Positions 22,754 to 55,811 of a DNA stretch of 64,000 nt are shown piece by piece. Under the pieces are notes generated by a model. That model did no database searches. It was given only the letters and a program-made list of their open reading frames with translations, and had not been told where the DNA came from. The stretch comes from Halonotius pteroides (GTDB taxonomy: Archaea > Halobacteriota > Halobacteria > Halobacteriales > Haloferacaceae). Location: the NCBI RefSeq assembly GCF_003605635.1, contig NZ_QMDW01000005.1, positions 62,001 to 126,000 on the forward strand, in the 5' to 3' direction. Within the stretch, counting starts at the first letter, position 1; each line of letters starts with the position of its first letter. The position numbers and the translations under genes are program-made.

Positions 22754-24970
22754 ATGCCAAAAGTAGACGTAGCTAAAGACGGGATCCCGGACAAAATCCG
22801 CACTATCAGGAATTGGATTTGCTGGCGTGAAGGTATGCGTGACGGAAAATCTACCAAGATTCCGACTAAACCATATCGGACGAGTGGTGACATTAATGCC
22901 GACGTTACCAACCCCGAACATCGCCGAGACTTCGACACCGCCTGGGATTCACTCAACGACTCTCGCGTGAACGCCGATGGTCTGGGGTTCGTCTTCAGTG
23001 ACGACGTCACCATCGCCGGTATCGACCTCGATAACTGTCGTGATTCTAATACTGGTGAAATCAAGGAATGGACGCAAACAATCATCGACAAGGTCGACTC
23101 ATATACGGAGGTTTCCGCTTCCGGGACTGGTGTGCATATCCTCGCAAGTGGGAAACTTCCGCCCGGCGGAAACCGGAAGGGCCCTATTGAGATGTATGAC
23201 TCCGGACGGTACTTCGCTACGACTGGTGCTCACGTCGAGGGAACCCCCACAGAAATCCGGAAGCGTCAGGATGAGATAGAGACCGTTCACCGCGAGTTCA
23301 TCGAGGATGGCGTGAGACCAGATGGACAGACGACTCTCACCAGAGGGACAGAAGTTGAAGATTCAGAAAGCAGAGGTGACGCGGATGGTCGCCGCGGCAT
23401 CGAGGCCCGGGCGCAGCAGAGTGCGAGTTCGCTCATTGAGCGTTATGGAGACGCCTTCAAGAGCATCCACGACCCCGCAATCAAGGAGGCCCTCGAGCGG
23501 GTCGCGACGAAGTACCTTCCCTCCAAGTGTCCGAGTACGTTCGCCGACCTCGCGGGACCCGGTGTGGACCTATCAGATCAAGAGATACTCACGCGGATGT
23601 TCGACTCTCAGGGAGGTGACCGCAGGCAGCGTCTCTACGAAGGCGACGCCTCGATGTGGGGGTCCCATGACGCCGATTATCCAAGCCAGTCCGAGGCAGA
23701 TATGGCGCTCGCTCACAACCTCGCGTTCTGGACGGCGAAAGACCCCAAACGGATGAACGCACTGTTCGAGGAATCCGGCCTGCACCGTGATAAGTGGGAG
23801 CGACGTCACTACGCGAGTGGCGCAACCTACGGCGATGTCACGCTCGCCCGTGCACTCCTCCGGGTGGACGATTACTACGAAGTCCCGAGCAAAGATGGTG
23901 TGAAGTTCTCGAAGGCCGATTCCAACGGCTCGGATTCATCGTCATCCTCGGGTGCGGACGACCACGATCTCCCGCCGATGGATTTCAAGATTGGCTCCGA
24001 TTCCGAGCCGTCCGAGACTGTCAACGCCGCTACGGACGAGACAAACCCACTGCACAGCGAAGGGGCGAACGGGGGATCCCCCGCCGTCAATACCGATGTC
24101 CATCCTAACCTCGAGGACGACGAAGAGTTCATTCCCGTCAACCCCGACGAAGATGGCGACCCGGCAGCAGTCGCTGACGCCTACGCAACTAGGCAGGAAC
24201 CGGAACAGGGGAACAGCCACGCCCGGGCCCATAGTCATGACGCCGCTTCGTCGACGACCACACCCAAAGGTTCCACGACAGCTGGGACAAGTGCTGATGA
24301 TAGTCCTGTCTCAGGGCAGAGAACGGCCGGGCCAGGGGCCGCGCCGCCGACGACGGATGGTCGCGAACCCGCTGACCCGCGTGGGGTGGACACCGATTCC
24401 GACCTCGACGAGAGCACCCAGCGAATGATGGAAGCGTCCGCTCGCGACGCCGGGCTGGGATGGGAACGCACCGACCCGACGCTCAATGATGACGAGAAGT
24501 ACCCAGCGGATTGGACCATCGGTGAGATCCGGGGCTACTCCGCGACCGACCAGGCAATGCGTCTCGCTCGTGAAGACCAGCGAATTCTCGCTCGGAAACT
24601 CGACCGGCAATCAATGGAACTCGCCGAACTCAGCGAGCAGGGCGAGGAGAACGAACGCCTCCGGTTTGTCCTCAGGGTCTACCTCGAAACGATGGATGAG
24701 CTGATGGAGGAACGCGCTCAGTATCGTACGCAACTCAAGCACCTCGGGGAGCTCTCGAGAGACGCTGCCGAGCTCCCAGACGACCCCGTGAAGCGAGTCA
24801 AGCAGATTATGCGTCCGAAGATTCGGCGCGAAGACGCAAAGACGGCAAAAGAGACACTCACAGGAATCGACGCCGTCCTCCAGGAGTACGAAGAGGCGAA
24901 CGAACGTATCAAGGCCGAAGAACGCGAACGACGCAAGAAACAGGGCTTCCTCTCGCGTCTCTTCAGGTAA
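22754..24970 (+). CDS. PrimPol-type primase (NrS-1-like replication protein)
   Basis: A 738-residue replication protein. Residues about 15-185 form a primase-polymerase domain: GIDLDN (about 88-93) supplies the metal-binding acidic pair, SGTGVHI (about 122-128) the conserved His, and IEMYDSGRYFATTG the third motif, as in phage NrS-1-like enzymes. Residues about 285-385 match the helical domain that follows it in that family (MALAHNLAFWTAKDPKRM, then LFEESGLHRDKWERRHYASG). A long acidic, Ser/Thr-rich linker and a basic coiled coil finish the protein; the superfamily 3 helicase found in many relatives is absent. It probably makes primers for the replicon whose origin lies 5 kb further on. Confidence 0.87.
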   Translation: MPKVDVAKDGIPDKIRTIRNWICWREGMRDGKSTKIPTKPYRTSGDINADVTNPEHRRDFDTAWDSLNDSRVNADGLGFVFSDDVTIAGIDLDNCRDSNTGEIKEWTQTIIDKVDSYTEVSASGTGVHILASGKLPPGGNRKGPIEMYDSGRYFATTGAHVEGTPTEIRKRQDEIETVHREFIEDGVRPDGQTTLTRGTEVEDSESRGDADGRRGIEARAQQSASSLIERYGDAFKSIHDPAIKEALERVATKYLPSKCPSTFADLAGPGVDLSDQEILTRMFDSQGGDRRQRLYEGDASMWGSHDADYPSQSEADMALAHNLAFWTAKDPKRMNALFEESGLHRDKWERRHYASGATYGDVTLARALLRVDDYYEVPSKDGVKFSKADSNGSDSSSSSGADDHDLPPMDFKIGSDSEPSETVNAATDETNPLHSEGANGGSPAVNTDVHPNLEDDEEFIPVNPDEDGDPAAVADAYATRQEPEQGNSHARAHSHDAASSTTTPKGSTTAGTSADDSPVSGQRTAGPGAAPPTTDGREPADPRGVDTDSDLDESTQRMMEASARDAGLGWERTDPTLNDDEKYPADWTIGEIRGYSATDQAMRLAREDQRILARKLDRQSMELAELSEQGEENERLRFVLRVYLETMDELMEERAQYRTQLKHLGELSRDAAELPDDPVKRVKQIMRPKIRREDAKTAKETLTGIDAVLQEYEEANERIKAEERERRKKQGFLSRLFR

Positions 24971-25718: not shown

Positions 25719-25793
25719 GAGCGGGTGGGGCGCGACGGTCGAGTGCCCAGTCCCGAAGCCGTTTCTCAGAAATCCCCTCAGAGAGTGACAAAC

Positions 25794-27401
25794 ATGTGTG
25801 CAAACATTACCACAGACGTAGCACAGCGCGCGGAAGACATCAGCGACGAGTTCGGCGAGATGGGCGTTGAGATCCCCGTGTCGAGCATTGAAGAGCGAAT
25901 TGCGGCCATGCAGGAGTTCTCCGTTCCGATCGAGGCGGCGGTCGAGACGACAGTTCGTAACGTCATCAACGACTACGACCTCGAATCCAACGACCTCTCG
26001 GACGGGGTCAAGGCGGTTGCCGGCTTCGTCGGCACCGGTAACAGCAGTTCCCGGGGCTTCGACCGGATAGCTCTCGAGGATATCTCGAACCTCGGTGACG
26101 AGGAATGGGTGGACGTCCGGGCGCAGATCGTCGACCTCTGGGAGCCGCACTCCGATTCCATGCGGCAGGTCGGCCTCATCGCCGACGAAACGGCCCAAAT
26201 GAAGTTCGTTGTCTGGGCGAAGAACACCGACTCGCTCCCGACCCTCGAGGAGGGCGTCACCTACGACATCACCTCGGCGGTCACGAACGAGTACGAGGGC
26301 AAGTACTCCATCTCGCTCAACAAGGCGAGCAGCGTCACGGAGTCCGAGGAGGCCGTCGAACCCACGGACGGGTCGATTCGCGCCACTGGGACGCTCGTCG
26401 GCCTCGATGAGGGTTCGGGCCTCATCAAGCGCTGCCCCAGCGAGGACTGCACGCGCGTCCTCCAGAACGGTCGCTGCTCCGAACACGGTGACGTCGATGG
26501 CGTGTTCGATCTTCGCCTGAAGGCCATCCTCGACGATGGCAACCGTGCTGTCCGCACGCTGTTCAACGCTGAGATGACTGAGGCAGTCTCCGAAGTGAGT
26601 CTCGATGACGCCATGGAGATGGCTTCCGAGGCCCTCGATCCCAGCGTCGTCGAAACGGAGCTCCGTGAGTTGCTCATCGGCAGGACGTATGATATCCGGG
26701 GCCCGGTCATCGGCGAGTACTTCCTCGTCGACGAGGTCGAGGAGATCTCCTACTCGGGAGAGAATGCCGGCCTCAGTAACGCATTCCTCGCAGACGCCGC
26801 CACGCAGCGCCAACCCGCCAAGCGCGTGTTCGCTGAAGAGCTGAACATGGCGACCCACTCGTTCACCCGCCCAGAGGACGAGGGCGACGATCGTGCGCCA
26901 AAGTTCACGCTACTCCCCTCGGGTGAGGCGGTCAACCGCGTGCTCGTGGTCGGTGCTCTCATCGAAACCTCGGATGTCGGCGATGACTCCGAGTTCTGGA
27001 AGGGGCGCGTCATGGCAGGTGGTGAAGTTGTGAACATCTACGCAGGGCAGTACCAGCAGGAGCCGATGGCTGTGCTCCGCTCGACCGAGACCCCGTCGTT
27101 CGTCGCAGTGGTCGGCAAGGTCCACCAGTACGAGACGGACGCCGGCGTGAACGTCTCCATCCAGCCCGAGCACATCTCGACGGTGGACGGGGAGATTCGC
27201 GACTCGTGGATGGTTGAAACCATCAACGCGACCCGGGCGCGACTAGGCGCGCTCGAGGGCGGTGAATCGGATGCAGCGGACGCCGTTCTCAGCGTCTACA
27301 ATAGTGATATCTCGGCCATCGAAGCGGCAGTCCAGGCGGCAGCCGAGAACCTCGCGCCTGCCGGCAGCGACATCGAGTCGGAGCCAGCTCCCGCCCAGTA
27401 A
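25794..27401 (+). CDS. Fused RPA and RPA-associated protein (RPA copy 2)
   Basis: A 535-residue fusion of two proteins that are separate elsewhere in the window. Residues 1-320 match the RPA genes at 1651-2736 and 37401-38351: helical N-terminus, OB fold (SMRQVGLIADETAQMKFVVW), and the zinc finger CPSEDCTRVLQNGRCSEHG (about 214-232). Residues about 340-505 match the RPA-associated genes at 936-1646 and 38422-39198 (AKRVFAEELNMATHSF; NIYAGQYQQEPM; RDSWMVETINATRARLG). It binds single-stranded DNA; fusing the two parts fixes their ratio. It follows leader element L3. ATG 25794 (MCANITTD) is the preferred start. Confidence 0.92.
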   Translation: MCANITTDVAQRAEDISDEFGEMGVEIPVSSIEERIAAMQEFSVPIEAAVETTVRNVINDYDLESNDLSDGVKAVAGFVGTGNSSSRGFDRIALEDISNLGDEEWVDVRAQIVDLWEPHSDSMRQVGLIADETAQMKFVVWAKNTDSLPTLEEGVTYDITSAVTNEYEGKYSISLNKASSVTESEEAVEPTDGSIRATGTLVGLDEGSGLIKRCPSEDCTRVLQNGRCSEHGDVDGVFDLRLKAILDDGNRAVRTLFNAEMTEAVSEVSLDDAMEMASEALDPSVVETELRELLIGRTYDIRGPVIGEYFLVDEVEEISYSGENAGLSNAFLADAATQRQPAKRVFAEELNMATHSFTRPEDEGDDRAPKFTLLPSGEAVNRVLVVGALIETSDVGDDSEFWKGRVMAGGEVVNIYAGQYQQEPMAVLRSTETPSFVAVVGKVHQYETDAGVNVSIQPEHISTVDGEIRDSWMVETINATRARLGALEGGESDAADAVLSVYNSDISAIEAAVQAAAENLAPAGSDIESEPAPAQ

Positions 27402-30148: not shown

Positions 30149-31546
30149 ATGTCAGACGGGACCTCGACTTCCGATGAAAGTCGAGATTTGGAATCTGCGT
30201 CTTCAGACGGTCAAGACGACCGATCTCGCGTCCAAACATCGGAACCGAAGGGGAGTCCAGACGAGAATGGAAAACCGCCATCAAGCGACGGGGACGGTAC
30301 ACAATTCAAAGTTGATGACCCGCTCTTTTCTCAACGGAAGGGAATTTTCCAAAATAAGGAGATGGTCCGTGTCGGTTGGGTACCTGATGGCGATCGAATT
30401 GTCGGACGTGACGATTATATTTCCACTATCAGCAGCTGTCTGAACGACGCTGTCTATGGTGGTGCCCCAAATCATATCTCAATTACCGGGAAAACAGGAA
30501 CGGGAAAATCTCTTGTCTCCCGATACGTCACTCGTCGCGCTGTCAATGCATCTGTTGAGGATATCCGAATAGGTCATACGTATCTAGACTGTTCGAAATC
30601 CTCAACTGAAGTTCAAGTCATCTCGACAATCGGGCAACAGCTGAACGACGAGGATATCTATGACGAGGATGAAGACATCGTGAAAATGCCCGATACCGGG
30701 CTACCGAAAGACAAGTTCTACAAACGCCTCTGGCAGATTCTCGATCACTATGATTCGGCTATCATCATTCTCGACGAAGTCGACCTTCTCAAGAGCGACC
30801 ACGTTTTGATGAGTCTCGCGAAGGCTGTCGAATCGAATGATACGTCGTGTCAAATTGGAATTATCGCAATAAGCAATCAAATCAATTTCTTCGACGAGCT
30901 AAACCCACGCACGAAGAGTGCCTTCCAGACCCAAGAACTCAATTTCGACCCATACAACGCAAATCAAATTCAAGAAATTCTTCGAGGCCGTGATGACGCC
31001 TTCCGTGATGGAGTCCTAACCGATGACGTTATTCCTCTTGTTGCGGCTTTCTCAGCACAGGAACACGGAGATGCGCGAAAGGCAATGCGATTATTCAGGA
31101 CAGCGGGAGAGCTTGCTGATCGCGAGGGATCAGACGTTGTTGGAGAAGATCATGTCCGAAGCGCTCAGGACACACTTGAAAAGGATCGATTCCGCGACTT
31201 CCTCCAGGGAACCCCAACTCAAATGAAAGCCGCATGCCTCTCGATCTCTGCCAAGTCGCTCTACTCGCGCGACGATTATGTTATTACAGGTGAACTATAT
31301 GATGCGTACCAGCAGATCACTAACGCAATAGATATGGACACGATCGGGATACGGCGGTTCCGGGATATCCTCGATGAGATGCAACTCAGTCAGGTAATTG
31401 AAACTAAAGAGGTAAATATGGGAAAAGGCGGCGGCCGCCACAACTCTCATCGGCTACTCCACAATCCTGAGACTATCCTTGATATTGTAATGGAGGATAC
31501 TCGATTTAGAGAAATCTCTAAATCCTCGCTGAAACGGTTCGCCTGA
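30149..31546 (+). CDS. orc1/cdc6: Orc1/Cdc6 replication initiator
   Basis: A 465-residue initiator that binds the adjacent origin boxes and loads the replicative helicase. A disordered acidic N-terminus (1-60) precedes the AAA+ domain with Walker A TGKTGTGKS (about 114-122) and Walker B IIILDEVD (about 205-212), sensor 1 (IGIIAISNQ) and sensor 2 (HGDARKAMRLF, about 310-320). The C-terminal winged helix covers about 370-450 and contains VNMGKGGGRHNSHRLLHNP, the beta-wing region that contacts DNA. Codon use is less GC-rich than in the neighbours, a common feature of orc genes carried on mobile replicons. Its position beside the repeats is strong support for function. Confidence 0.95.
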   Translation: MSDGTSTSDESRDLESASSDGQDDRSRVQTSEPKGSPDENGKPPSSDGDGTQFKVDDPLFSQRKGIFQNKEMVRVGWVPDGDRIVGRDDYISTISSCLNDAVYGGAPNHISITGKTGTGKSLVSRYVTRRAVNASVEDIRIGHTYLDCSKSSTEVQVISTIGQQLNDEDIYDEDEDIVKMPDTGLPKDKFYKRLWQILDHYDSAIIILDEVDLLKSDHVLMSLAKAVESNDTSCQIGIIAISNQINFFDELNPRTKSAFQTQELNFDPYNANQIQEILRGRDDAFRDGVLTDDVIPLVAAFSAQEHGDARKAMRLFRTAGELADREGSDVVGEDHVRSAQDTLEKDRFRDFLQGTPTQMKAACLSISAKSLYSRDDYVITGELYDAYQQITNAIDMDTIGIRRFRDILDEMQLSQVIETKEVNMGKGGGRHNSHRLLHNPETILDIVMEDTRFREISKSSLKRFA

Positions 31547-32698: not shown

Positions 32699-34495
32699 TC
32701 ATGTAGCATCACCAGTCTGGGCAATGCGGGTGAGCTCATCGGCGATAAAGTCAGCAGTCATCGCTGGCTCGGGCCAGGAGACACAAACTTCACCGTCGAA
32801 ATTCGCAGCCTCACTCCGGGGAACTGGTTCACCATCATAAGACGGACTCGACGAACGACCAACATGTTGCGGTCTGACAGTCGTCGACGTCTGATCGGAT
32901 GACTTGACAGGAGCGCGTTCGACAATCTCGATTTCAGATGCCCATCGTGAATCGAGCTTCGGTTGACCTTGATACGTCTGCTTGGATCTCTCGCGTGGAA
33001 GCTTGAAATCCACCAGACGCACAGTGTCGCCCTCGTTCGGTTCGATGAAGGTCTTCTTCGAGATTAGGACTTCGCCATCGACATCACCGGGGTCAGCCGT
33101 TGACGCAGTCTCTTCGTATTCGCTGGACTCCCAGACGGAAACGCGGACCTCATCCTCGCGGCGGTTACCATCCTTTAGAATCATAGCAAACTTCAGGCTA
33201 GGAACTGGTGGATAGTAGATTTTCTTCACGACGCCCTGTGTCGTGACATAGCCTTTCGAGGACGCGAGATTCGCCTTCAAAATCGCGTTGATCCTGATGA
33301 CGTTTCTCGGGTCAGTCTGCTCCTCTTCGACAAGCGAAAGGAACGCGGTCGTGATGTCCGTCCCAGCCTGCACACGGCGTGCAAGTTGGGAAGCGACAGT
33401 GACCGGTGGTTTCCGAATTTCGTGCAGTGCATTCCCGTCAAGCAGTCTGCGTGTCTCGGCAAGAATTTCTTCACGAAGATCGGGATCTTCCTTACCCAGC
33501 TCGCGCAACGGAGCAGCTCGGTCGTAGATCTGCTGTTTGAACCGTTGTTCGAAGCTCCGCCGGTTTCGATCCCGTCGCTCAGGAAGCGTGCGATCGTGTT
33601 CCGTGCGGAAACGAGCAAGGATGTCTGTGTGTTGATTCAAGAGAGCAGCCACACCTGTCATGTGACCGTTTTCGTCGATACCATGAGAGCTCCGCTTGAG
33701 CTCTTCATCCAACGCTAGGCGGAATTCGATTCCGGTTATCGACGACCGAGAGTAGTCCTCGGGGTTCGGCACGACGCTCCGAAGGGAGGCAACTTCGCCA
33801 TAGGGAAGCAGCACTTCTAATTCGGACGTCGTGACACCTTCTGATTCGCGAGGCGTCTGTTCATCGTTGGGGATGATCTTCAGCTCACGAAGCCGTTGAG
33901 TGTCTAGGTCGAGGGTTTCGACAGATTCGAGCTTCTGTCCCAACTGTACGGGGGCAGTAGACGAACTCGTGGGGATGTACTCTTCAAGACCAGACGCTGT
34001 GCCCGTCAACTGATCGCCAGTTGGGTCGGTCAGGCGGTCGTGGCCCATGTAGATGTACTCGCCAGTCGAGAGAGCGTCGGGTTCAGTGATCGCGTCAGCC
34101 GGACGGCCTCTCGCGTTCATCTCAGCCCTCCGCTCGTCACTACGGGATGGGACCATCGGTTGGTCGTTGTACCAGCCGTAGTAATCATCGGAACTCTCGC
34201 TCTCGAACTCGTGTTCGGAGCCAGACGTGAATTCAGAGATTGCGCCTTGCGACTCCACGTCGTCCGCATCGAGGCGACGCTCGGACTCATCGAGGCCAGC
34301 GTGCCAGCGGATAGTCGGCGACTCCACGTTACCGTCCAAGCGACGGCGTTCCTCGCGATCGAGGGAGCGGAGATCGTCGAACCACCCATCGTAGCGACGG
34401 GCAATGTGGGTCGGATTCTCATATTCGATTTCGGTTCTACCGTTCTTCTCGTGACCAGCCTCAGAGAGGTGGACACTGTCGGTGTTTCCACTCAT
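32699..34495 (-). CDS. Large OB-fold protein, distant RPA relative
   Basis: A 598-residue protein. The first 250 residues are acidic and low in complexity. Residues about 330-400 are helical (VASQLARRVQAGTDITTAF) and match a helix in the plus-strand gene at 35104-36846 (HLLARKVRSGQDVFTA). Residues about 405-515 form an OB-like domain (VTTQGVVKKIYYPPVPSLKF; EDEVRVSVWESS; EPNEGDTVRLVDFKLP; YQGQPKLDSRWASEIEIVER), corresponding to the RPA OB fold. No zinc finger was seen. It is likely a single-stranded DNA-binding protein. The start codon lies inside one arm of a long inverted repeat that also copies its promoter. Confidence 0.8.
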   Translation of the reverse strand: MSGNTDSVHLSEAGHEKNGRTEIEYENPTHIARRYDGWFDDLRSLDREERRRLDGNVESPTIRWHAGLDESERRLDADDVESQGAISEFTSGSEHEFESESSDDYYGWYNDQPMVPSRSDERRAEMNARGRPADAITEPDALSTGEYIYMGHDRLTDPTGDQLTGTASGLEEYIPTSSSTAPVQLGQKLESVETLDLDTQRLRELKIIPNDEQTPRESEGVTTSELEVLLPYGEVASLRSVVPNPEDYSRSSITGIEFRLALDEELKRSSHGIDENGHMTGVAALLNQHTDILARFRTEHDRTLPERRDRNRRSFEQRFKQQIYDRAAPLRELGKEDPDLREEILAETRRLLDGNALHEIRKPPVTVASQLARRVQAGTDITTAFLSLVEEEQTDPRNVIRINAILKANLASSKGYVTTQGVVKKIYYPPVPSLKFAMILKDGNRREDEVRVSVWESSEYEETASTADPGDVDGEVLISKKTFIEPNEGDTVRLVDFKLPRERSKQTYQGQPKLDSRWASEIEIVERAPVKSSDQTSTTVRPQHVGRSSSPSYDGEPVPRSEAANFDGEVCVSWPEPAMTADFIADELTRIAQTGDAT

Positions 34496-34775
34496 AACAA
34501 TGTGGGAAAGCGACCTTGCTTTCCATTCGCATAGACGCTCGAACCGTCTATAACTGTATCGCGCCTATCACCGCGCAGTAATGCGGTTTTCTGATGAAAA
34601 CCCCCGAAATACCGCTCCCTTCTAACAGAGCCTCCGACTAGATCGCTCGCGCCAGCAACACTCATCGTCGCCCATAGCCTCTCAATTCGTCCTCACAGAC
34701 CGTTATAGAACGTCCCAATCGCTCAAGAAGTGTGGAAGTGGAAAGACGAGAGTCGCCTTTCCCACATTGTTATGA
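34492..34775. repeat. Inverted duplication of a promoter and start codon
   Basis: TCATAACAATGTGGGAAAG (34492-34510) recurs as its exact reverse complement at 34757-34775. Each arm contains an ATG: the real start of the minus-strand OB gene (34495) and a mirror-image ATG at 34772 opening only 26 codons. TATA boxes GTTATAGA lie behind both arms (34547-34554 on minus, 34702-34709 on plus). The promoter has thus been copied in inverted orientation. Confidence 0.65.
34600..34615. repeat. Upstream motif ACCCCCGWAATNCCGC, copy 3
   Basis: ACCCCCGAAATACCGC, 105 bp before the start of the minus-strand OB-fold gene, in the same relative orientation as copies 1 and 2. Beyond the promoter duplication and L6, the rest of 34496-35103 shows nothing further. 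Confidence 0.4.
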
Positions 34776-35103: not shown

Positions 35104-36846
35104 ATGACGTACTACCACAACGGAGACGACCAGCTCACGAACGGCGATGTCGAACAGGACGACCGGTTCGACGAACTCACCATGCGCGGCCTCTACGAGT
35201 CACCGCACCTCGAAAGCGACTGCCTCGGCATCCGCCTCGAGAACGCTGGCGAGCTCATGATGGCTGCCCGTCGTGAGCCCGAATACGACGAGTTCGGCCT
35301 CGAAATCGAAGGAAATGGAAACTACGAACTCGACGCATACTGGATCGGTGCGAGCCTTCGCACTACCGAAGGTCGCGACGTCGATCCTATCGACCTCGCC
35401 GACGAGGACCTCACTGGACTCCCACTCGAAGCCCAGGAACGCCTGCACGGACTCCGTGAGGAACGCAAACGCCAGCGCGAGAAGGCCTTGGCCGCCCACG
35501 TGGTCGGCATCGACCGCGAGACACGATGTCGTAAGGAGCTCGTCGAAGAGCGCGAGGAACGCCAGTCCAAGCGCAACGAGCGCGTCCTCGGGGAGGGAAT
35601 CATCCGCAACAACGCATTCGAAGATATCGACGACAACGAGGCTGAGGCTGTCCGCGAGGCCGCTGCTCGAATCGAAGACCACCTTATCACCGGCCCCGGT
35701 GACGAAGTACTCCAACACCTGCTCGCACGCAAAGTCCGGAGCGGTCAGGACGTCTTCACCGCTCAGTCCAACACGTTGGACCAGCTCTATCAGGAGGCGA
35801 GCGTCATCCAACCTATCTCGTCCGTGCCGATTATCCCCTCGAAGTACAACGTCGAGGCTGACATCCAGGGCGAAGTCACGACCCTCTGGCAACCCAAATC
35901 AGGGAGCCAACAGCAGGTCGGCCTCATCAAAGACGACGCCGGCGATACCATCAAATTCACCGTGTGGACACGCTCTCAACAGGGTGTCATCCTCCACGAA
36001 GGCGATCTCGTTCGGATTCGTGCCGGGAAAGTCGGGAAGTACCAGGGACAGGCCACTCTCGCCGCTGACTCCGAGACGCATATCGAAGTTCTCGAGCGTG
36101 GCGACGGACCCGCTCCCAGAGGCGACATCCCGAACGTAGACTGGGAGAAATACGCCAAGCGTCACCGCGAACAGGGCATCGAACAGCCCTTCCAAGTGCA
36201 CAGCGCGTGTACGATTCCCCCCTTGGGCGCTCCCGGCGTCGAAGAAGTCTCCCGTCCCGTGCATGCTCCCGTCGACAGACTCGACCAAGAGAAGGGCGAG
36301 AAGCTGGACGCCCTCGAATGGCTCAAAGCCACCGAGATATTCGACGAGGACGATAGCAAGATACCACTCCCAACTTGGTGGCGCGAACAAGCGAACGTGG
36401 TCTCCCTAATCGTCGACGTCGACGCCGAAGGGGACGAGATCGGCGCGGCCATCCGGGAGGTCGTCTCGACGGGCCGTCCCGAATCCACGCCTGTTCCCGT
36501 TACTCCCGTTCCCCAGGGTAAGCGTCGTCTCTGGGCGCTTATCCGTGACCTCGACCTTTTCGGAACCGCCCTTGATGACGACAAGGAGGGAGAGGTAGAG
36601 ACGGAGACAGTGGACGACACGAACGAGAGCGTACTCACTGGCGTTGCAACCCCCGACACCTCGGAGACTACCGTGGCGAGCGACGACAAGCCGGGTCTTG
36701 GACTTCCAACGACCACGTGCCGGTGTCCAGAGTGTGATCACGATCGAGCGCAATATCGCCTCGTTCAACTCCGGTCCATCGACGAACCACCGACGAGACT
36801 CCTCTCCTGTGTGAATTGCGGCCAGCGATGGCGCGAAGACAGCTAG
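35104..36846 (+). CDS. OB-fold protein fused to a TFIIS/TFS-type zinc ribbon
   Basis: A 580-residue protein with an unusual layout. Residues 1-110 are acidic, 110-200 a charged coiled coil, about 215-245 a helix shared with the gene at 32699-34495, and about 250-345 an RPA-type OB fold (QQQVGLIKDDAGDTIKFTVW; YQGQATLAADSETHIEVLER). After a linker, the C-terminus (539-580) is a classic TFIIS/TFS zinc ribbon: Cys541, Cys544, Cys569 and Cys572, with VQLRSIDEPPTR carrying the acidic pair Asp560-Glu561 that in TFIIS and TFS enters the RNA polymerase active site to promote transcript cleavage. The protein may therefore act on RNA polymerase while holding nucleic acid. It follows leader element L6; ATG 35104 is preferred over a GTG at 35029. 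Confidence 0.87.
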   Translation: MTYYHNGDDQLTNGDVEQDDRFDELTMRGLYESPHLESDCLGIRLENAGELMMAARREPEYDEFGLEIEGNGNYELDAYWIGASLRTTEGRDVDPIDLADEDLTGLPLEAQERLHGLREERKRQREKALAAHVVGIDRETRCRKELVEEREERQSKRNERVLGEGIIRNNAFEDIDDNEAEAVREAAARIEDHLITGPGDEVLQHLLARKVRSGQDVFTAQSNTLDQLYQEASVIQPISSVPIIPSKYNVEADIQGEVTTLWQPKSGSQQQVGLIKDDAGDTIKFTVWTRSQQGVILHEGDLVRIRAGKVGKYQGQATLAADSETHIEVLERGDGPAPRGDIPNVDWEKYAKRHREQGIEQPFQVHSACTIPPLGAPGVEEVSRPVHAPVDRLDQEKGEKLDALEWLKATEIFDEDDSKIPLPTWWREQANVVSLIVDVDAEGDEIGAAIREVVSTGRPESTPVPVTPVPQGKRRLWALIRDLDLFGTALDDDKEGEVETETVDDTNESVLTGVATPDTSETTVASDDKPGLGLPTTTCRCPECDHDRAQYRLVQLRSIDEPPTRLLSCVNCGQRWREDS

Positions 36847-36901: not shown

Positions 36902-37204
36902 ATGTCAACCAACAACTCCGACCACGGTCCGACGAACAGTCACAGTCAACCACCCACGAACGAGGAACTCACCGGCGACGACGATGTCGACTTCCATCTT
37001 GACATCGTCGACGGCGAAGATCCCAGCCGGCCCGTCACCGACGACAAGAACGAGTTCAACCCGTACCCGTCGGGACCCGGTCCCCTTCCAAGAACGATGC
37101 GGTTCGTCAGGCTCATCGACGGCACCTGGGCGTTCATCGAGCGCGGGAACGTCGGCGGCTGGATCAGTGCCGAGGAAACCATCAACCTCGATGAAGTCTG
37201 GTGA
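36902..37204 (+). CDS. Small hypothetical protein after the OB-TFS gene
   Basis: A 100-residue protein without a family I recognise. The N-terminal 60 residues are polar and acidic; the C-terminal 40 (PRTMRFVRLIDGTWAFIERG, then GGWISAEETINLDEVW) look like a small beta-rich domain. It lies 55 bp after the OB-TFS gene and ahead of an RPA gene, so it is probably co-transcribed with the former. No leader element precedes it. Confidence 0.7.
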   Translation: MSTNNSDHGPTNSHSQPPTNEELTGDDDVDFHLDIVDGEDPSRPVTDDKNEFNPYPSGPGPLPRTMRFVRLIDGTWAFIERGNVGGWISAEETINLDEVW

Positions 37205-37400: not shown

Positions 37401-38351
37401 ATGTCAAGCAACACAAAATCCGCAGAACTAGCCGTAACTGTCTCCGACACAGACCTCTCGGAGGCTGCAACCGGCATCCTCGAACAGTTCCCAGACGACC
37501 TTGATGGCGACCTTCCTAGCGAAAAGGAAATCGCGAGCCGTCTCGAGAAGATGACCAACCAGTACAAGGTTCCTCTTGACGAGGCCCGCCGCGCCGCGGT
37601 CAGCCACTATCGCGACGTGTTCGGCCTCGAATACGATGACCTCGAGTTCCCTGGCCAGAGCGCCGGCGACGTCACCCTCGCCTCAATCAACCAGCACGAG
37701 CAGTGGGTGGACGTGACCGTAAAAATCGTCGAACTCTGGGACCCCACCCACGACAGCATCGACCAGGTCGGGCTCATCGGCGACGAGAGCGGTCGCCTCA
37801 AGTTCACCAAATGGACGAAGGCCGAACTCCCCGCCCTCGAAGAGGGTAGCGTCTACAAGCTCTCGAACGTCATCACCAGCGAGTACCAGGGGCGATACAG
37901 CATCAACCTCAACTCGCGCTCGACCATCGAACCCGTCGACGGCGACATCGACGTTAGAGCCGATATCGAAGATGTTCAACTCTCTGTCCCGATGGTTGCA
38001 ATCCAGTCCGGGTCGGGACTCATCAAGCGGTGTCCCGACGAGGACTGCACGCGCGTCCTCCAGAATGGTCGGTGTGCAGAACACGGCGACGTTGAAGGGG
38101 AATTCGACCTTCGCATCAAAGCGGTCTTCGACGACGGTGAGACCGTCCAGTACGCAATCTTCGACCGCGAAGCGACCGAGGCCATCGCGGGTATCACGCT
38201 CAATGAGGCGATCGAGCAGGCGATGGACGCTCTCGATACCAGCGTTGTCGAGGACGCCCTTATCGACGCGCTCGTGGGCCGATACTACCAGGTGGAAGGC
38301 TCTATCGTCGGTCGATATCTGCTCGTGAACGAGGCAGAACAACACGGGTAA
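37401..38351 (+). CDS. Replication protein A (RPA copy 3)
   Basis: A 316-residue single-stranded DNA-binding protein, close to RPA copies 1 and 2. It has the helical N-terminus (1-95), the OB fold with SIDQVGLIGDESGRLKFTKW and YQGRYSINLNSRS, the zinc finger CPDEDCTRVLQNGRCAEHG (about 212-230), and a C-terminal OB-like region ending VGRYLLVNEAEQHG. The zinc finger is nearly identical to that of the fused copy, so these two are the nearer pair. The ATG at 37401 is preferred; a 39-residue upstream extension is Ser/His-rich and unlikely. The RPA-associated partner follows after 70 bp. Confidence 0.92.
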   Translation: MSSNTKSAELAVTVSDTDLSEAATGILEQFPDDLDGDLPSEKEIASRLEKMTNQYKVPLDEARRAAVSHYRDVFGLEYDDLEFPGQSAGDVTLASINQHEQWVDVTVKIVELWDPTHDSIDQVGLIGDESGRLKFTKWTKAELPALEEGSVYKLSNVITSEYQGRYSINLNSRSTIEPVDGDIDVRADIEDVQLSVPMVAIQSGSGLIKRCPDEDCTRVLQNGRCAEHGDVEGEFDLRIKAVFDDGETVQYAIFDREATEAIAGITLNEAIEQAMDALDTSVVEDALIDALVGRYYQVEGSIVGRYLLVNEAEQHG

Positions 38352-38421: not shown

Positions 38422-39198
38422 ATGAGCGAATCCAACTCAAAATCATCCAGCAGTAGCACCGATACCGAGAACAACGACAGCGGTTGGCACGGCCGCCAGG
38501 TAGCGAAGCGTGCCTTCGCCGCCGAAATCAACGACGCTACCCACGTCTTCAAACAGTCTGATGAGGAACGAGCCCCGAACTTCGCGCTGCTTCCGTCGGG
38601 CGAGGTCGCCAACCGATACTTCCTCGTCGGCACGATAACCGAAGTCAACGACGTCGGGAACGAGGACGAATACTTGCAGGCTCGCGTGGTCGACCCTACG
38701 GGCACGATGTTCGTCTACGCCGGGCAGTACCAGCCCCAGGCCGCTGCGCTCCTCTCCAGCCTCGAACCCCCGGCGTACGTCGCTGTGACCGCGAAGCCAT
38801 CCGCGTTCGAGAGCGATGGCGAGACGTACGTCTCGCTCCGGCCCGAGACCACCACCCGCGTCGATAATGAAACCCGTGATCAGTGGGTTTCCGAGACCAT
38901 CGAATGTACCGAAGCCCGACTCGACGCCTTCCCCGATAGTGACAGCGAGTTCGCCGCGATGAGCCGCGAGCAGTACGGCGACAGTCTCGACCTCGATAAC
39001 TATCGGGAGGCCGTCAACGACGCTCGTGAGGACCTCGGAATGGACATGGACCACCGGTCGGACAGATCCAATAGTGAGACCACGACCGAGAACCAGAACG
39101 ACGACGTCAGCGTAGATGAAGACGGCGTCACCAAGGAAGCGACGGTTGAGGAGGCAGAAATCGCCGCTGCCGTCGCAAACGCCAGGTTTGAGGAGTAA
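38422..39198 (+). CDS. RPA-associated protein, partner of RPA copy 3
   Basis: A 258-residue protein of the same RPA-associated family as 936-1646 and the second half of 25794-27401. Shared blocks are GRQVAKRAFAAEINDATHVF, VDPTGTMFVYAGQYQPQA and ETRDQWVSETIECTEARLDA. It is an OB-like partner of RPA, with a disordered acidic C-terminus (about 205-258). With the upstream RPA gene it restores the usual two-gene cassette. The 220 bp after it hold nothing I can name. Confidence 0.9.
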   Translation: MSESNSKSSSSSTDTENNDSGWHGRQVAKRAFAAEINDATHVFKQSDEERAPNFALLPSGEVANRYFLVGTITEVNDVGNEDEYLQARVVDPTGTMFVYAGQYQPQAAALLSSLEPPAYVAVTAKPSAFESDGETYVSLRPETTTRVDNETRDQWVSETIECTEARLDAFPDSDSEFAAMSREQYGDSLDLDNYREAVNDAREDLGMDMDHRSDRSNSETTTENQNDDVSVDEDGVTKEATVEEAEIAAAVANARFEE

Positions 39199-39988: not shown

Positions 39989-41057
39989 GAGGGTGTCATA
40001 GAAGAGTTCTCACACCGTGATCACGGTACTTCCCGGATTGTCTCCGCGTTCGTAGTTGGTGATAGCGACGACGAGACGCAAACACAGCGCGAGGAATACC
40101 TGCGCTCGTGCGTGGACGCGGCCTCGGGCGAACGCACGCCCGAGGCCGCAGTCCTTTACTGATTCGTTGGTTCGTTCGACTCCTGTCCGGCGGTTGTACG
40201 TCTCGTCTAGCGTCGATTGCTTCAGCTGAACGTCCTCGCTGTGTTCGTCGATGCGGTCTTCGACCCTGTACTCGATGTCTTTTGGATCGTCGGTGTTTCG
40301 CGCGTTGTACGGGGCGACTGGCACGACCCCTGCGGCCAGCAGGTGGTCGTGCCAGTCGAGCGTGTCGTAGGCGCTGTCACCGACCATCCACATCGGTTTG
40401 GCGACGGCGAGCGCGTCACGCGTGACGCGCATCGCCGTCTCTTCTGGCGCTTGTTTGCTCTCGGTGAACTCGGCTGCAATCGGGATCTTTTGCCCGGTCG
40501 AAATGATCGTGCAGCCGTATCCGTGGTAGTACTCTTCGGCCGTTGGATCGTAGCACTTCGAGGCGTCTTGATCGGCAGGCATCGCCCTCACATCCGTTGA
40601 ATCGATGCAATACGTCAAGTCGAGCAGGCCGCGGCAGGCGGCCTGCTCGACGAGGTGGTCGAAAACATCGTCAACAACGTGTTCGAGGTCGGTGAGGAAC
40701 CGATCGACCGCGTCTCTCGACGGCGGTCGATCGAATCCACAGCCAAGCCAGACGAACGTGTTCTGTAGCTCTCGTTCGATCGGACGAATGCCGTAGGTGT
40801 CGTGGTAATAGCAATGGAGGAATCCACGCATCAGTTCTGGTGGCTCATGCTCTCGTGTTCGCCCCGTCTCCGCCGGGGCGAACACGTCGAACTCTGCGAG
40901 AAACTCGAAGGAGAGATGCTCAAACAACGCTAACGTCTCGGTCTCCGCGACATTGAAGAACGACTCTACCGAAGGATCATCTTGCAGGGTCGCTGAGCTC
41001 ATACCACCTCAGCATAGACCCTGCTCTTTGGTGTGGTAACCGTTCTATGACACCCTC
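39989..41057. mobile_element. IS5-family insertion sequence, 1,069 bp
   Basis: Ends are the inverted repeats GAGGGTGTCATAGAA (39989-40003) and TTCTATGACACCCTC (41043-41057), with further similarity inward. CATATTCA occurs directly at 39981-39988 and 41058-41065, an 8-bp target duplication as made by the ISH1-like group of IS5. It contains one full transposase gene, so it may be active. Confidence 0.9.
40010..41002 (-). CDS. IS5-family transposase
   Basis: A 330-residue DDE transposase filling the insertion sequence. The N-terminal third is the DNA-binding part; the catalytic residues are expected in CIDSTDVRAMPAD (first Asp), MVGDSAYD (second Asp) and YNRRTGVERTNESVKD (Glu). The length is normal and there is no frameshift. 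It cuts and rejoins the 15-bp inverted ends. Related elements are common in haloarchaeal plasmids. Confidence 0.92.
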   Translation of the reverse strand: MSSATLQDDPSVESFFNVAETETLALFEHLSFEFLAEFDVFAPAETGRTREHEPPELMRGFLHCYYHDTYGIRPIERELQNTFVWLGCGFDRPPSRDAVDRFLTDLEHVVDDVFDHLVEQAACRGLLDLTYCIDSTDVRAMPADQDASKCYDPTAEEYYHGYGCTIISTGQKIPIAAEFTESKQAPEETAMRVTRDALAVAKPMWMVGDSAYDTLDWHDHLLAAGVVPVAPYNARNTDDPKDIEYRVEDRIDEHSEDVQLKQSTLDETYNRRTGVERTNESVKDCGLGRAFARGRVHARAQVFLALCLRLVVAITNYERGDNPGSTVITV

Positions 41058-42217: not shown

Positions 42218-42745
42218 ATGAGCTTCTACGCGCGAATCTCCGGCTACCTCCAGTACCGCACGCACGACCACCTTGACGCCGCCATCGAACGCCTCAGGCG
42301 AGGCGCTTGGCTCAACGACGACGAGCAGTGGCTCGTCCGAGGTCACCCCCGGGAGATCCGCACTGACGCTACCATCGACCACGATCGCAACCTCCTCGCA
42401 ATTCCCGCTGGTGTGTACCAGAATCTCGGTCGAATCACCACCGAACTCTTCGCTGGGGCGACCGACGGTGTCGTAGTCACGTCCTCGAACGACGCGTGTT
42501 TCGACGCTTGGATCGAGACCCCGCTTCCCGAAGCCGCCAACGTTCCGCCTGGTGAGGGTGGTGATGTCTCTTCTATCCGTTGTATCGACCTCGAACACTT
42601 CGCCCGTACGCAGGGCCTCGGCGTCAACCAATTCGGCGATCCTGGTCACTTCCAGTGGCAGTGGGATGTCCTCGATGCCTTCCACGACAAGCACGACCCA
42701 GACATCCTCGGGATTCTCGAATCCGCGCACGGGCCACCCGGATGA
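42218..42745 (+). CDS. Hypothetical protein
   Basis: A 175-residue protein without a recognised family. The N-terminus (FYARISGYLQYRTHDHLDAA) looks like a small alpha-beta domain; the middle (RTDATIDHDRNLLAIPAGVY, QNLGRITTELFAGATDGVVV) is strand-rich and ends in a Trp/Asp/His-rich tail (GHFQWQWDVLDAFHDKHDPD). It lies 69 bp after the previous gene and 15 bp before the next, so the three are probably one transcript. Confidence 0.78.
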   Translation: MSFYARISGYLQYRTHDHLDAAIERLRRGAWLNDDEQWLVRGHPREIRTDATIDHDRNLLAIPAGVYQNLGRITTELFAGATDGVVVTSSNDACFDAWIETPLPEAANVPPGEGGDVSSIRCIDLEHFARTQGLGVNQFGDPGHFQWQWDVLDAFHDKHDPDILGILESAHGPPG

Positions 42746-43279: not shown

Positions 43280-43352
43280 ACACGAACACAGCGAACTCGA
43301 AGGACCGTGAATCGTGCTCTTCGGTTGCTTACGACCAGATTCCTCGCCTTCA

Positions 43353-43381
43353 GTTTGTCTTCCCCCGGAGGAACTGGGGGG
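43353..43381 (+). promoter_or_regulatory. Leader element L9
   Basis: GTTTGTCTTCCCCCGGAGGA then ACTGGGGGG; five C face six G around GGAGGAACT. It ends 19 bp before the TFB start. Confidence 0.65.
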
Positions 43382-43399
43382 TCTACACCCCCGTTCCAT

Positions 43400-44578
43400 A
43401 TGTCTCAAGATGCCCTCGAGAACACTGACACTACGACCCATAGTACCGGCTCGTCTTCCGCCGGGTCGGGGTCTCCCACTCCCGTCTCGACGCGCCTCAG
43501 GCAGAACCAGCAGCAGACTCAGTCATTTTCCAGCGAGACTGCCTCCGAAGACGAGCAGTCGAAAGCCACGGACTCGGAATCGACCGATGAAATACAGTGT
43601 CCTGAGTGCGCAACCGACGAGTACCTCGTCATTGACGAGGAGGAAACCTACTGTGGGGAATGTGGCCTCGTACTCTTCCGTGACATCCTCGATCGGCGCC
43701 TTCGCTGGGTCGATACTGGGGACGGCCGTGAACCCGAACGTGGCGGCGCTCCCACCACACATCGCCTCCATCATAAGGGGCTCCCGACGGAGATCGGATA
43801 TAACAGTGACGGGTACGACCGCCCGCTGTCGCGTCAGACCAAACGGCGTTTCCGTCGACTCCGTAAGTGGGATAGTCGATCGAAAACCGGCTCGAGTCGC
43901 GACCGCTCGCTCCGCACCGGCCTCGGCGAAATCGCTCGCCTCGTCAGTGCGCTCGAACTCTCCGGCTCTATCCACGACCGCGCCGCTGACCTCTACCGCG
44001 AGGTTAGCGCAGAAGGGATGCTCGCCGGCAACTCCGTCGAAGGTATGGCGAGTGCCTGTGTGTACGCTGCTTGCCGTCTCGAACGCCTGCCACGCACGCT
44101 CAAAGAGATTGGTGAAGTCGCTCGTGTCGATATTAAAGAAATCAATCAGGACTACAAGTGCCTAAATCAAGATCTTGAGCTCGCAACGCCTCCACCACTC
44201 CCGCAGGACTACATCCCACGACTCGCGAGTGCCGTTGATGCCTCCCCTCGTCTCGAACGCCGTGCCTACCAGCTCTCCAGATCGAACGCTGTGGGTGTCC
44301 TCGCGAACGGCCGGCAACCGAACGGCGTCGCCGTTGCCTGTCTCTATCACGCCTTCAAAGAGAGTGGGCAAAGCAACCTCCGACTTACCCAACAAACTCT
44401 TGCCGAGGAAGGCTACACGACCCCGACAACGATTCGCAAGCTCTGGAGGGAGCTCCAAGGCCTTGCCGATGACGGAGAACTTCCCGATCCGGACGGCAAC
44501 CTCGACCATTTCTCGTTAGCCTGTGGAACGGTGGTAGGCGACGAGACGGATTGGATGACACCCCCATATCCTACGTAA
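43400..44578 (+). CDS. tfb: Transcription factor B (TFB)
   Basis: A 392-residue archaeal TFIIB homologue that binds TBP-DNA and recruits RNA polymerase. A disordered acidic N-terminus of about 60 residues precedes the zinc ribbon (Cys67, Cys70 and the pair in YCGECG about 20 residues later), then the B-reader region (GGAPTTHRLHHKGLPTEIGY), and two cyclin-like repeats (about 165-265 and 270-365) with the second-repeat segment NAVGVLANGRQPNGVAVACL. Haloarchaea use several TFBs for different gene sets; a plasmid-borne one suggests control of the replicon's own promoters. The N-terminal extension is longer than usual. The start at 43400 follows leader element L9; its stop codon lies in inverted repeat P3. 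Confidence 0.94.
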   Translation: MSQDALENTDTTTHSTGSSSAGSGSPTPVSTRLRQNQQQTQSFSSETASEDEQSKATDSESTDEIQCPECATDEYLVIDEEETYCGECGLVLFRDILDRRLRWVDTGDGREPERGGAPTTHRLHHKGLPTEIGYNSDGYDRPLSRQTKRRFRRLRKWDSRSKTGSSRDRSLRTGLGEIARLVSALELSGSIHDRAADLYREVSAEGMLAGNSVEGMASACVYAACRLERLPRTLKEIGEVARVDIKEINQDYKCLNQDLELATPPPLPQDYIPRLASAVDASPRLERRAYQLSRSNAVGVLANGRQPNGVAVACLYHAFKESGQSNLRLTQQTLAEEGYTTPTTIRKLWRELQGLADDGELPDPDGNLDHFSLACGTVVGDETDWMTPPYPT

Positions 44579-44959: not shown

Positions 44960-45079
44960 ATGACGGTTACCGTTCATAACGGTATTACCGTTATTATTAC
45001 TATTATTGGTTCGATTTTCTCCCTTCGTGAGCAGCTCGATCACCGACAGTATCGCGACCACGACTCCACTCAAACATGA
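44960..45079 (+). CDS. Small upstream ORF overlapping the PCNA start
   Basis: An ATG 11 bp after the G-rich end of leader element L11 opens 39 codons (MTVTVHNGITVIITIIGSIF, then a charged tail). Its TGA (45077-45079) overlaps the PCNA ATG at 45076 as ATGA. The arrangement suggests translational coupling: ribosomes loading at the leader would reach PCNA after reading this peptide. The peptide has one hydrophobic helix and may also have a function of its own. The DNA includes two near-palindromes, so coding could be accidental. Confidence 0.4.
   Translation: MTVTVHNGITVIITIIGSIFSLREQLDHRQYRDHDSTQT
44963..44992. promoter_or_regulatory. Repeated ACGGTNNACCGT half-palindromes before PCNA
   Basis: ACGGTTACCGTT (44963-44974) and AACGGTATTACCGTT (44978-44992) are two near-palindromic sites in tandem, followed by an AT-rich run. 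They look like a pair of binding sites for a dimeric regulator upstream of PCNA. Confidence 0.4.
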
Positions 45080-46092
45080 GTACCAACACCGAATCCGAAA
45101 GCGCGGACGCACAGCCAGCGACCACACCCGACGACGGATCCTCAGACGTAGAATCTGAGATGGACGTCGACGACGCGACCACCGCAGAAACCGCTGAAAA
45201 TACCCAACCCAAAGGCGAGCCCGAACCAGATCTGGAATCGGAACCAGATTCTGAACCGGAGCAAGAATCCAACACCGACGGTGAAGCCGACGAGGACGTC
45301 GAGGAAGACGCAGAAGAAGAGGCCGATGTCAGCACCGGACCGCCGAGCCAGTTCCAGGCCGCCATCATGGGCGGTGACATCAAGGAGTTCGTCGGTACGC
45401 TTCGCGCCATCGTCGACGAGGCGAAGTTCAATGTTGAGCCTGATGGCATTCAGGTCCGTGCGGTCGATCCCGCAAACGTCGCGATGGACGACGGTGTGCT
45501 GTCCGCAGGGGCTTTCGAGTCCTACGACGCCTCCGAGGGTGTTCTGGGCCTCAATCTCGAACGTCTCGAGGGGGTCCTAAAACTCGCGAAGAAGAATGAT
45601 CTCGTCGAACTCTCGTTCGACACGAATACGTTCAAACTCGTCATCTACATCGATGGCGTCGAGTTCACGATGGCGTGTATCGACCCCGACAGCATCAGGT
45701 CGGAACCCGAAATTCCGGACATGGATCTCCCCGCGTCGTTCACTGTCGATGAATCGCAGATCAGGCGGGGGGTGAAAGCAGCTGATATGGTCTCCGACCA
45801 CATCCAAATCCGTTGTGACGAGACCGAGCAGGCCGTCTTCATCGAAGCCCAAGGCGACACCGACGACGTGTCCCTGGAACTTACGGAGGAGGAGTATACC
45901 GAGCTGACCGCCGTCGACGCGGAGGCGCTGTTTTCGCTTGACTACGTTAAGGACATCTCCCGGAAATTCCCGAAGAACGCTGCAATCAGCATCACCTTCG
46001 GGACTGACTTTCCAATGATGATCGAATACGAGTTTGCAGACGGCGAGTGCGAGATTCTCTCGATGATTGCCCCACGAATCCGGTCCAACTAA
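45076..46092 (+). CDS. pcn: DNA sliding clamp PCNA with acidic N-terminal extension
   Basis: A 338-residue protein. From about residue 92 (FQAAIMGGDIKEFVGTLRAI) to the end it is a normal, complete PCNA of about 247 residues: VRAVDPANVAMDDGVL, the connecting loop region around MACIDPDSIRSEPEIPD, and the C-terminal MIEYEFADGECEILSMIAPR. PCNA rings hold polymerases, ligase and nucleases on DNA. The first 90 residues are a disordered tail rich in Glu, Asp, Ser and Thr that most archaeal PCNAs lack. The ATG at 45076 agrees with this long form; an internal start at Met98 (MGGDIKEF) would truncate the fold. The stop overlaps the next ATG by one base. Confidence 0.95.
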   Translation: MSTNTESESADAQPATTPDDGSSDVESEMDVDDATTAETAENTQPKGEPEPDLESEPDSEPEQESNTDGEADEDVEEDAEEEADVSTGPPSQFQAAIMGGDIKEFVGTLRAIVDEAKFNVEPDGIQVRAVDPANVAMDDGVLSAGAFESYDASEGVLGLNLERLEGVLKLAKKNDLVELSFDTNTFKLVIYIDGVEFTMACIDPDSIRSEPEIPDMDLPASFTVDESQIRRGVKAADMVSDHIQIRCDETEQAVFIEAQGDTDDVSLELTEEEYTELTAVDAEALFSLDYVKDISRKFPKNAAISITFGTDFPMMIEYEFADGECEILSMIAPRIRSN

Positions 46093-46817: not shown

Positions 46818-48053
46818 ATGAACGTCACGCTTCGCTGTCGCGCCTGCCCTGATGAGGAAACCGCCAGCGAAGCGTGGCGTCACATAGAACTTCACCGGCA
46901 GATCCGCAACCACGCCGTCCGCGACTACTACTCCCACGAACCGGGCAACCGTCCGAGTTCTTTCGATCAGCACAACAAACTCACCGACTGGAAACAGCGG
47001 TGGCCCGTGTTCAAGGACGTGTCCGCACATGCCGCCCAACAAACCATCTCTGAAGTTCACAAGAACATCAAGATCCTCCGAGAAAAGCGGTACAAGGGCT
47101 GTAAAACTGGACGGCTCAAATGGCAGGGGAGCGGAGAGCGGCGATCGGTCGCGTATCAGTCCGAAGGCTACGACGTGAATCACACCACGGGCCGCGACGG
47201 ATACGTGTCACTCCGACTCTCCAAAATCGGCACTATTCAGATTCGCGCACACCGCGACCTGCCGCCGACCGAGAGCATCAAGCGCGTCGTTCTCAAAAAG
47301 GAGGTGACGGGCGAATGGTTCGCCTGTCTCGTCACCGAACGCCCGGACGACAGCCTCCCCGAGAAACCGAATCCCGACGACCTGTCTCCAGCCGACTGGG
47401 TAGGCGTGGACCTCGGCATCCAGTCGTATATCCACACCAGCGACAACCTCGCTGTGGACACGCTCGACCTCTCCGACGAGTACGATCGCTACGCACGCGA
47501 ACAGCGGAAACTCGACCGGAAAGAGTATGGGTCGAACAACTGGGAGAAACAGCGTCAGAAGGTCGCCAAGGCGAAGCGTCGTATCAAGCGGGTGGTGCTG
47601 GACTTCCAGCACAAGTTGACGACGTGGCTGGTTCGGGAGTACGACATGGTGGCTGTCGAAGACCTCGACGTGAAGCCGATGATGGAAACGTCTCAATCGG
47701 CCAAGAACAAACAGGATGCGTCGTGGTCGCGGTTCTTGACGCTCTTAGAGTACAAAGGAGAGTTGCACGGCACGCACGTCGTGAAGGTAGACTCGGCAGG
47801 GACGACCAAGGAATGCTCGCGGTGTGGTGTCAAAACGGACAAGCCGATTTGGGTTCGGCAGCACTCGTGTCCGGCGTGTGGTCACGAGGAGGACCGGGAT
47901 CTAAATGCGGCGAAGAACATCCTTTCACGCGGTTGCAAGCAGTTAGGGGCGGGACGCTCCGAATCAACGCCTGTGGAGACTGCGCTCCCTACGTTCACTC
48001 CTTCGCGGGTGAATGCAAAGCGCGTCGTAGAAGCAGGAAGCCCCGAGGCTTGA
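46818..48053 (+). CDS. tnpB: TnpB, RNA-guided nuclease of an IS1341-type element
   Basis: A 411-residue TnpB, the ancestor-type of Cas12 nucleases, which uses an RNA copied from the element's right end to cut matching DNA. The RuvC residues are intact: Asp198 (GVDLGIQ), Glu281 (AVEDLDV) and Asp361 (EEDRDLNAA). The zinc finger CSRCGVKTDKP...CPACGH lies between the last two. Length and motifs are normal, so the nuclease is probably active. The coding end runs into the right-end hairpin, whose loop includes the TGA stop. The AbrB-like gene 5 bp upstream probably controls it. Confidence 0.92.
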   Translation: MNVTLRCRACPDEETASEAWRHIELHRQIRNHAVRDYYSHEPGNRPSSFDQHNKLTDWKQRWPVFKDVSAHAAQQTISEVHKNIKILREKRYKGCKTGRLKWQGSGERRSVAYQSEGYDVNHTTGRDGYVSLRLSKIGTIQIRAHRDLPPTESIKRVVLKKEVTGEWFACLVTERPDDSLPEKPNPDDLSPADWVGVDLGIQSYIHTSDNLAVDTLDLSDEYDRYAREQRKLDRKEYGSNNWEKQRQKVAKAKRRIKRVVLDFQHKLTTWLVREYDMVAVEDLDVKPMMETSQSAKNKQDASWSRFLTLLEYKGELHGTHVVKVDSAGTTKECSRCGVKTDKPIWVRQHSCPACGHEEDRDLNAAKNILSRGCKQLGAGRSESTPVETALPTFTPSRVNAKRVVEAGSPEA

Positions 48054-53923: not shown

Positions 53924-54039
53924 CCACTCTTTCAACAATTAGACGAATGGAGTAATAATCGAGAGCCGTGCCTCGTCTCTCTATTCGGAATTCGATTCTA
54001 GAAACCGACCGTTGCACGCTCTCTGACGGTGGAACGCCA

Positions 54040-54068
54040 TTTTTGTCGCCCCCCGACAGGTGAAGGGG
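54040..54068 (+). promoter_or_regulatory. Leader element L13
   Basis: TTTTTGTCGCCCCCCGACAG then GTGAAGGGG. The 14-mer TTTGTCGCCCCCCG is identical in L13, L15 and L16. It lies 42 bp before the MoxR-like gene and contains AGGTGA. Confidence 0.7.
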
Positions 54069-54109
54069 CTGGAAAGACCCAGATAGAACGCCTCGATTGC
54101 CAGAAAATC

Positions 54110-55714: not shown

Positions 55715-55731
55715 AGGAACCAGCAGCGCTC

Positions 55732-55759
55732 GTTTGTGCGCCCCCGTGACGACGAGGGG
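55732..55759 (+). promoter_or_regulatory. Leader element L14
   Basis: GTTTGTGCGCCCCCGTGACG then ACGAGGGG, 53 bp before the VWA gene and 17 bp after the stop of the MoxR-like gene. The two genes therefore each carry a leader element although they could share a transcript. Confidence 0.65.
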
Positions 55760-55811
55760 CTGCACACTCTGTCCATTACTCGCCCGTCCCGGCCTCCGTC
55801 CTGTTCCAACC

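Follow-up and report, generated by a model that had tools for sequence, protein, structure and literature searches.

A plasmid-borne OB-fold protein with a TFS-type zinc ribbon in haloarchaea: a possible direct connection of plasmid replication with transcription

What might a plasmid protein do that joins an OB fold of the single-stranded DNA-binding type to the zinc ribbon of a transcript-cleavage factor? The question is raised by a gene of Halonotius pteroides in the 64,000-nt stretch of DNA analysed here (the window), which corresponds to positions 62001-126000 of contig NZ_QMDW01000005.1. Circular plasmids from other genera contain stretches that are 94-98% identical in DNA sequence to parts of the window, over 28-52 kb in three plasmids and 1-25 kb in three others. 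An earlier note on this DNA had described the gene as an RPA-type OB fold fused to an intact TFIIS/TFS ribbon, and both parts were confirmed by PF01096, PDB and Foldseek matches. From N to C terminus, the protein comprises a conserved N-terminal region, a helical region, the OB fold, a second conserved region, an acidic tether and the TFS-type zinc ribbon, and its features are located as follows.

35104..36846, + strand: fusion gene, 580 aa, with its ATG at 35104 and a stop codon ending at 36846
35854..36096, + strand: RPA/SSB-type OB fold, residues 251-331
36568..36699, + strand: variable acidic tether, residues 489-532, predicted to be disordered
36700..36843, + strand: TFIIS/TFS-type C-terminal zinc ribbon, residues 533-580, with R557, D560 and E561

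A near-identical copy on NZ_CP098520.1 is an annotated CDS, likewise of 1743 nt. We rejected a false open reading frame on the grounds of 54-99% identity in independent genera and a whole-frame dN/dS of 0.13-0.20. A misassembled junction was also rejected, since the identical junction is present in complete circular plasmids from many strains.

The ribbon was assessed by profile, by structure and by alignment. PF01096 (Pfam) matched residues 540-577 with 48.5 bits (E 7.6e-13; cut-off 21). The protein has cysteines at 40, 142, 369, 539, 541, 544, 569 and 572; C541/C544 and C569/C572 are the zinc ligands and accompany Q-x-R557-x-x-D560-E561 with TFS spacing. These ligands, and the motif RSIDEPPTR (residues 557-565) that contains D560 and E561, are as the earlier note gave them. 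A strict ribbon signature was found once in the window and in none of 30 codon-shuffled windows. Sequence matches of the ribbon in the PDB were RPC10, RPB9, RPA12 and TFIIS. When the ribbon was modelled alone (AlphaFold, aligned with chromosomal TFS ribbons; pLDDT 81.8), the model had the three-stranded zinc-ribbon fold of the PF01096 domain, and the Foldseek matches, among those listed, were RNA polymerase subunits of the RPB9/RPC10/RPA12 class and TFIIS. The earlier note had made its reading depend on a TFS fold at this point, and a TFIIS/TFS fold was obtained. The full-length AlphaFold model placed the ribbon strands at residues 549-577. In 26 aligned ribbons the four cysteines and Q, R, D, E, T, R and W were invariant and the hairpin was of equal length, the fusion having the full 24 residues of chromosomal TFS.

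With archaeal TFS (TIGR01384) and the TFIIS C-ribbon (PF01096), the fusion thus has in common the four cysteines, the hairpin length, Q-x-R-x-x-D-E and the predicted fold. However, archaeal TFS is a protein of about 110 aa with an N-terminal ribbon, whereas the fusion has 580 aa and lacks the second cysteine set that would form one. Because the N-terminal ribbon is absent, the fusion is not a TFS, and its TIGR01384 score was 32.8 bits against a cut-off of 64.75; an in-frame fusion of a whole TFS gene was rejected for the same absence. The closest solved structures to the ribbon, RPB9, RPC10 and RPA12, are small polymerase subunits with an N-ribbon, while the fusion is a plasmid OB protein.

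Pfam OB matches of the fusion at about residues 263-328 were sub-threshold (REPA_OB_2, 17.9 bits against 27). A PDB sequence match covered residues 252-330 (OB domain 2kbn, 7e-6), and the full-length AlphaFold model contained an OB barrel at residues 251-331. In Foldseek the best match of this OB was 2ken (Methanosarcina MM0293 OB domain, 2.7e-7), followed by POT1, HIN-200 and human SSB-type proteins, and its identity to the plasmid's own RPA was 34%. The PDB match, the model with its Foldseek matches and the identity to RPA indicate that the OB fold is of the ssDNA-binding type. The fusion is not a canonical RPA: NCBIfam PRK07217 (replication factor A) matched it at 3.8e-11, in support of the OB fold, but with 42.9 bits, below the family cut-off of 353. 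Haloarchaeal RPA (PRK07217) and a plasmid family of OB-only "DNA-binding proteins" have the OB fold in common with the fusion (32-43% identity); the OB-only family, unlike RPA, also has the helical region preceding it.

The earlier note had called the rest of the protein RPA-like with a coiled coil. This description holds for about 80 residues of clear OB fold, but residues 1-100 and 346-488, although conserved, match nothing known; as to the coiled coil, AlphaFold predicted helices at residues 108-230. The full-length model (30 sequences) was weak overall (pLDDT 56.6), too weak for interpreting residues 1-100 and 346-488, and its very low confidence at residues 486-535 is as expected for a disordered tether. 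The fusion is a plasmid OB protein of the ssDNA-binding type with a TFS-type ribbon, and we infer that it binds ssDNA.

The earlier note had proposed a profile search for conservation of the fusion. The results showed that it recurs, at 54-99% identity and for the most part on large plasmids, in some ten genera of haloarchaea; among the hosts are Halorientalis, Haloplanus, Halobellus, Halorarius, Haloglomus, Salinigranum, Salinirubellus, Halarchaeum, Haloarcula, Halorubrum and Halosimplex. Relatives of full or almost full length numbered 10 among species genomes (54-99%), 11 in PLSDB plasmids and 9 among 392 class-level genomes, the window's own not counted, and these three sets overlap. No relatives were found in the phage collection, and none were confirmed in viral contigs. 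R557, D560 and E561 were present in each intact ribbon among the homologues, so the acidic pair, whose loss in homologues would have told against the earlier note, is conserved wherever the ribbon is intact. Two copies lacked an intact ribbon. In NZ_CP101168.1 (Haloglomus halophilum) the reading frame shifts directly behind the D-E pair, so that the final two zinc ligands are missing, and this may be a natural loss, the ribbon being dispensable, or a sequencing error; in the Haloquadratum J07HQW2 MAG a run of N lies ahead of the ribbon.

The ribbon is under strong purifying selection in most comparisons, with dN/dS of 0.05-0.14 in six of eight pairs (of the other two, one gave 0.45 on just five changes and one was saturated), while the preceding tether varies and its dN/dS reaches 0.66. 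None of 20 OB-only relatives examined carried a ribbon, all ending 1-46 residues past the aligned part, so the OB family does not in general carry a ribbon. The most parsimonious reading, given these 20, is that a pre-existing haloarchaeal OB protein probably gained the ribbon and then kept it. In PF01096 searches of Halobacteria, nearly every genome had two canonical TFS. Among the inspectable PF01096 matches listed for this class, no other ribbon was found in a large protein; large open frames around some strong matches were read collectively as stop-to-stop extensions of ordinary TFS genes, and further fusions may exist, also among weaker matches beyond those listed. The host itself has two ordinary TFS genes, and the one translated in full has both ribbons. 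Its second TFS (L002:1495-1815, on chromosome-type contig C39) reads Q-T-G-A-A-D-E where other TFS show Q-x-R, and its catalytic arginine seems to be replaced by glycine. The earlier note knew of no family joining an OB fold to such a ribbon; we likewise found neither such a family nor a description of the fusion in the open-licence PMC literature.

The fusion lies in an island of replication and transcription genes.

22754..24970, + strand: NrS-1-like primase-polymerase upstream of the fusion (PF22763; PDB primase matches 1e-30)
25725-27401, + strand: RPA-RPAP-like single chain, 558 aa, which looks like RPA joined to RPAP
30149..31546, + strand: Orc1/Cdc6 replication initiator
32699..34495, - strand: OB paralogue of 598 aa without a ribbon, transcribed divergently from the fusion
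36902..37204, + strand: 100-aa ORF, 55 bases downstream of the fusion, conserved in the nearer clade
37401..38351, + strand: RPA (replication factor A; PRK07217)
38422..39198, + strand: RPA-associated (RPAP/COG3390-like) protein, assigned by its position behind RPA, without a profile match
42218..42745, + strand: 175-aa protein with no family assigned, conserved between the fusion and TFB
43307..44578, + strand: plasmid TFB (TFIIB-type initiation factor)
45076..46092, + strand: plasmid PCNA sliding clamp

The order OB paralogue (-), fusion (+), 175-aa protein, TFB and PCNA is kept in relatives, and the upstream primase-polymerase is conserved in them. PCNA was found in all 11 loci with enough flank, down to 54% fusion identity, and a TFB match in 10 of these over the same range; at the TFB match in NZ_CP098520.1 no intact gene is annotated, and the Halarchaeum plasmid keeps the fusion with TFB missing. 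The RPA/RPAP pair adjoins the fusion in the nearer clade only. In Haloarcula-type loci, the RPA and RPAP matches lie in a single-chain RPA-RPAP protein further upstream, and in relatives RPA and RPAP queries match successive parts of the 558-aa gene (41% and 46% identity); the chain at 25725-27401 is a second unusual fusion within the island.

The window has other notable features. A perfect 19-nt inverted repeat (34492-34510 and 34757-34775, arms separated by 246 nt) perhaps marks the ends of a small inserted element; its left arm includes the start codon of the divergent OB paralogue. The island is interrupted by a DDE transposase (40010-41002), a TnpB-type protein (46818-48053) and a second DDE transposase (48333-49805). 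At 54029-58805 (+), a dynein-type AAA ATPase (AAA_5) and, behind it, a VWA protein of 1034 aa form a MoxR/VWA-like pair. The element may be conjugative, because a HerA/VirB4-like ATPase (DUF87; 6887-9211, -) adjoins a DUF7139 protein (9208-11088, -) here and a TrbC/VirB2 protein is present in the corresponding stretch of a relative plasmid.

Published work gives several points of reference for function. TFIIS-type factors insert an Asp-Glu pair via the secondary channel and thereby activate RNA cleavage (PMC5715097). Archaeal (Pyrococcus) RPA binds RNA polymerase and increases in vitro transcription, eukaryotic RPA has been suggested to bind the non-template strand during elongation, and enzymes clearing RNA polymerase ahead of archaeal forks were not known as of 2013 (PMC3820547). 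In 12 of 27 archaeal genomes the gene tfs lies next to pcna, and a replication-transcription connection has been proposed (PMC2643942).

Our preferred reading, to which we give an even chance, is that the fusion is a plasmid ssDNA-binding protein which, on plasmid ssDNA or where the plasmid replicates, presents host RNA polymerase with a functional cleavage tip of TFS type. Its OB fold, perhaps together with the adjacent RPA and OB paralogue, would keep the protein on plasmid ssDNA, either at a fork or on the strand displaced in a transcription bubble. Being flexible, the acidic tether would allow the ribbon to enter the secondary channel of the host polymerase, where Asp560-Glu561 would help it cleave backtracked RNA. 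Such cleavage would restart or clear host polymerase stalled where it meets the plasmid replication machinery. The PF01096 score, the TFIIS/RPA12/RPB9 fold, the invariant Q, R, D and E and the low ribbon dN/dS argue for this reading, as do the ssDNA-binding-type OB fold, the conservation of the fusion in about ten genera and an island with PCNA, TFB, the OB paralogue, RPA and the primase-polymerase. Precedents exist in the binding of RPA to RNA polymerase (PMC3820547), the tfs-pcna neighbours (PMC2643942) and the Asp-Glu mechanism (PMC5715097). The gene island also lends support, in no particular order of preference, to the functions that the earlier note suggested, which were polymerase rescue at forks or on single-stranded transfer DNA and redirection of host polymerase. 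However, the missing TFS N-terminal ribbon bears on docking, a step that we infer would proceed without it; no PIP-box-like motif for PCNA was found in the fusion protein; hosts already own two TFS genes; and the ribbon, frameshifted in one plasmid allele, may be dispensable unless that record is in error.

The ribbon might instead hold host RNA polymerase at plasmid DNA with no fork-rescue purpose and, jointly with the plasmid TFB, bias transcription towards plasmid genes or replication primers. The retention of TFB behind the fusion at 10 of the 11 loci fits such recruitment, and according to PMC3820547, Richard et al. 2004 reported action of a Sulfolobus SSB at recruitment or initiation. 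Nevertheless, a mere tether would not need the invariant catalytic R, D and E, and the Halarchaeum plasmid keeps the fusion without TFB; we consider this explanation unlikely.

A ribbon serving replication alone, by binding DNA or the primase-polymerase, PCNA or RPA with no action on RNA polymerase, appears quite improbable. Archaeal RPA41 homologues nearly always have a zinc finger (PMC2643942), and the island is rich in replication genes. Against this, the profile, the fold and the intact catalytic residues are specifically of the TFIIS/TFS class, and the ribbon stands about 200 residues from the OB fold, behind the variable tether.

Very unlikely is a polymerase antagonist whose ribbon would block the secondary channel and thereby inhibit transcription by the host or compete with its TFS. 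Potent inhibitors have arisen among TFS paralogues, including Sulfolobus TFS4, which is of the same ribbon class and inhibits RNA polymerase (PMC5715097), and the gene is carried on a mobile element. In TFS4, however, the acidic pair is lost and the lysine hairpin is shorter (PMC5715097), whereas the fusion keeps D-E and all 24 hairpin residues, and its intact catalytic residues count against inhibition.

What appears new is the conserved OB plus TFS-ribbon architecture, each part being already known, and the fusion suggests that replication and transcription of the plasmid are directly linked. Prior links were indirect, namely Pyrococcus RPA with RNA polymerase and the position of tfs next to pcna in many genomes; a fusion of an OB protein and a TFS tip that is natural, conserved and found beside PCNA and TFB serves as a "Rosetta stone" for this connection, which can now be tested in haloarchaea used in the laboratory, such as Haloferax volcanii. 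The fusion also means that plasmids carry an elongation-type factor beside their own initiation and replication factors. Only tentatively do we suggest that the fusion is a dedicated plasmid factor, a fork-borne ssDNA binder and cleavage factor that, with plasmid PCNA and TFB, resolves replication-transcription conflicts. If so, it would be, to our knowledge, the first described covalent link of the archaeal replication and transcription-elongation machineries.
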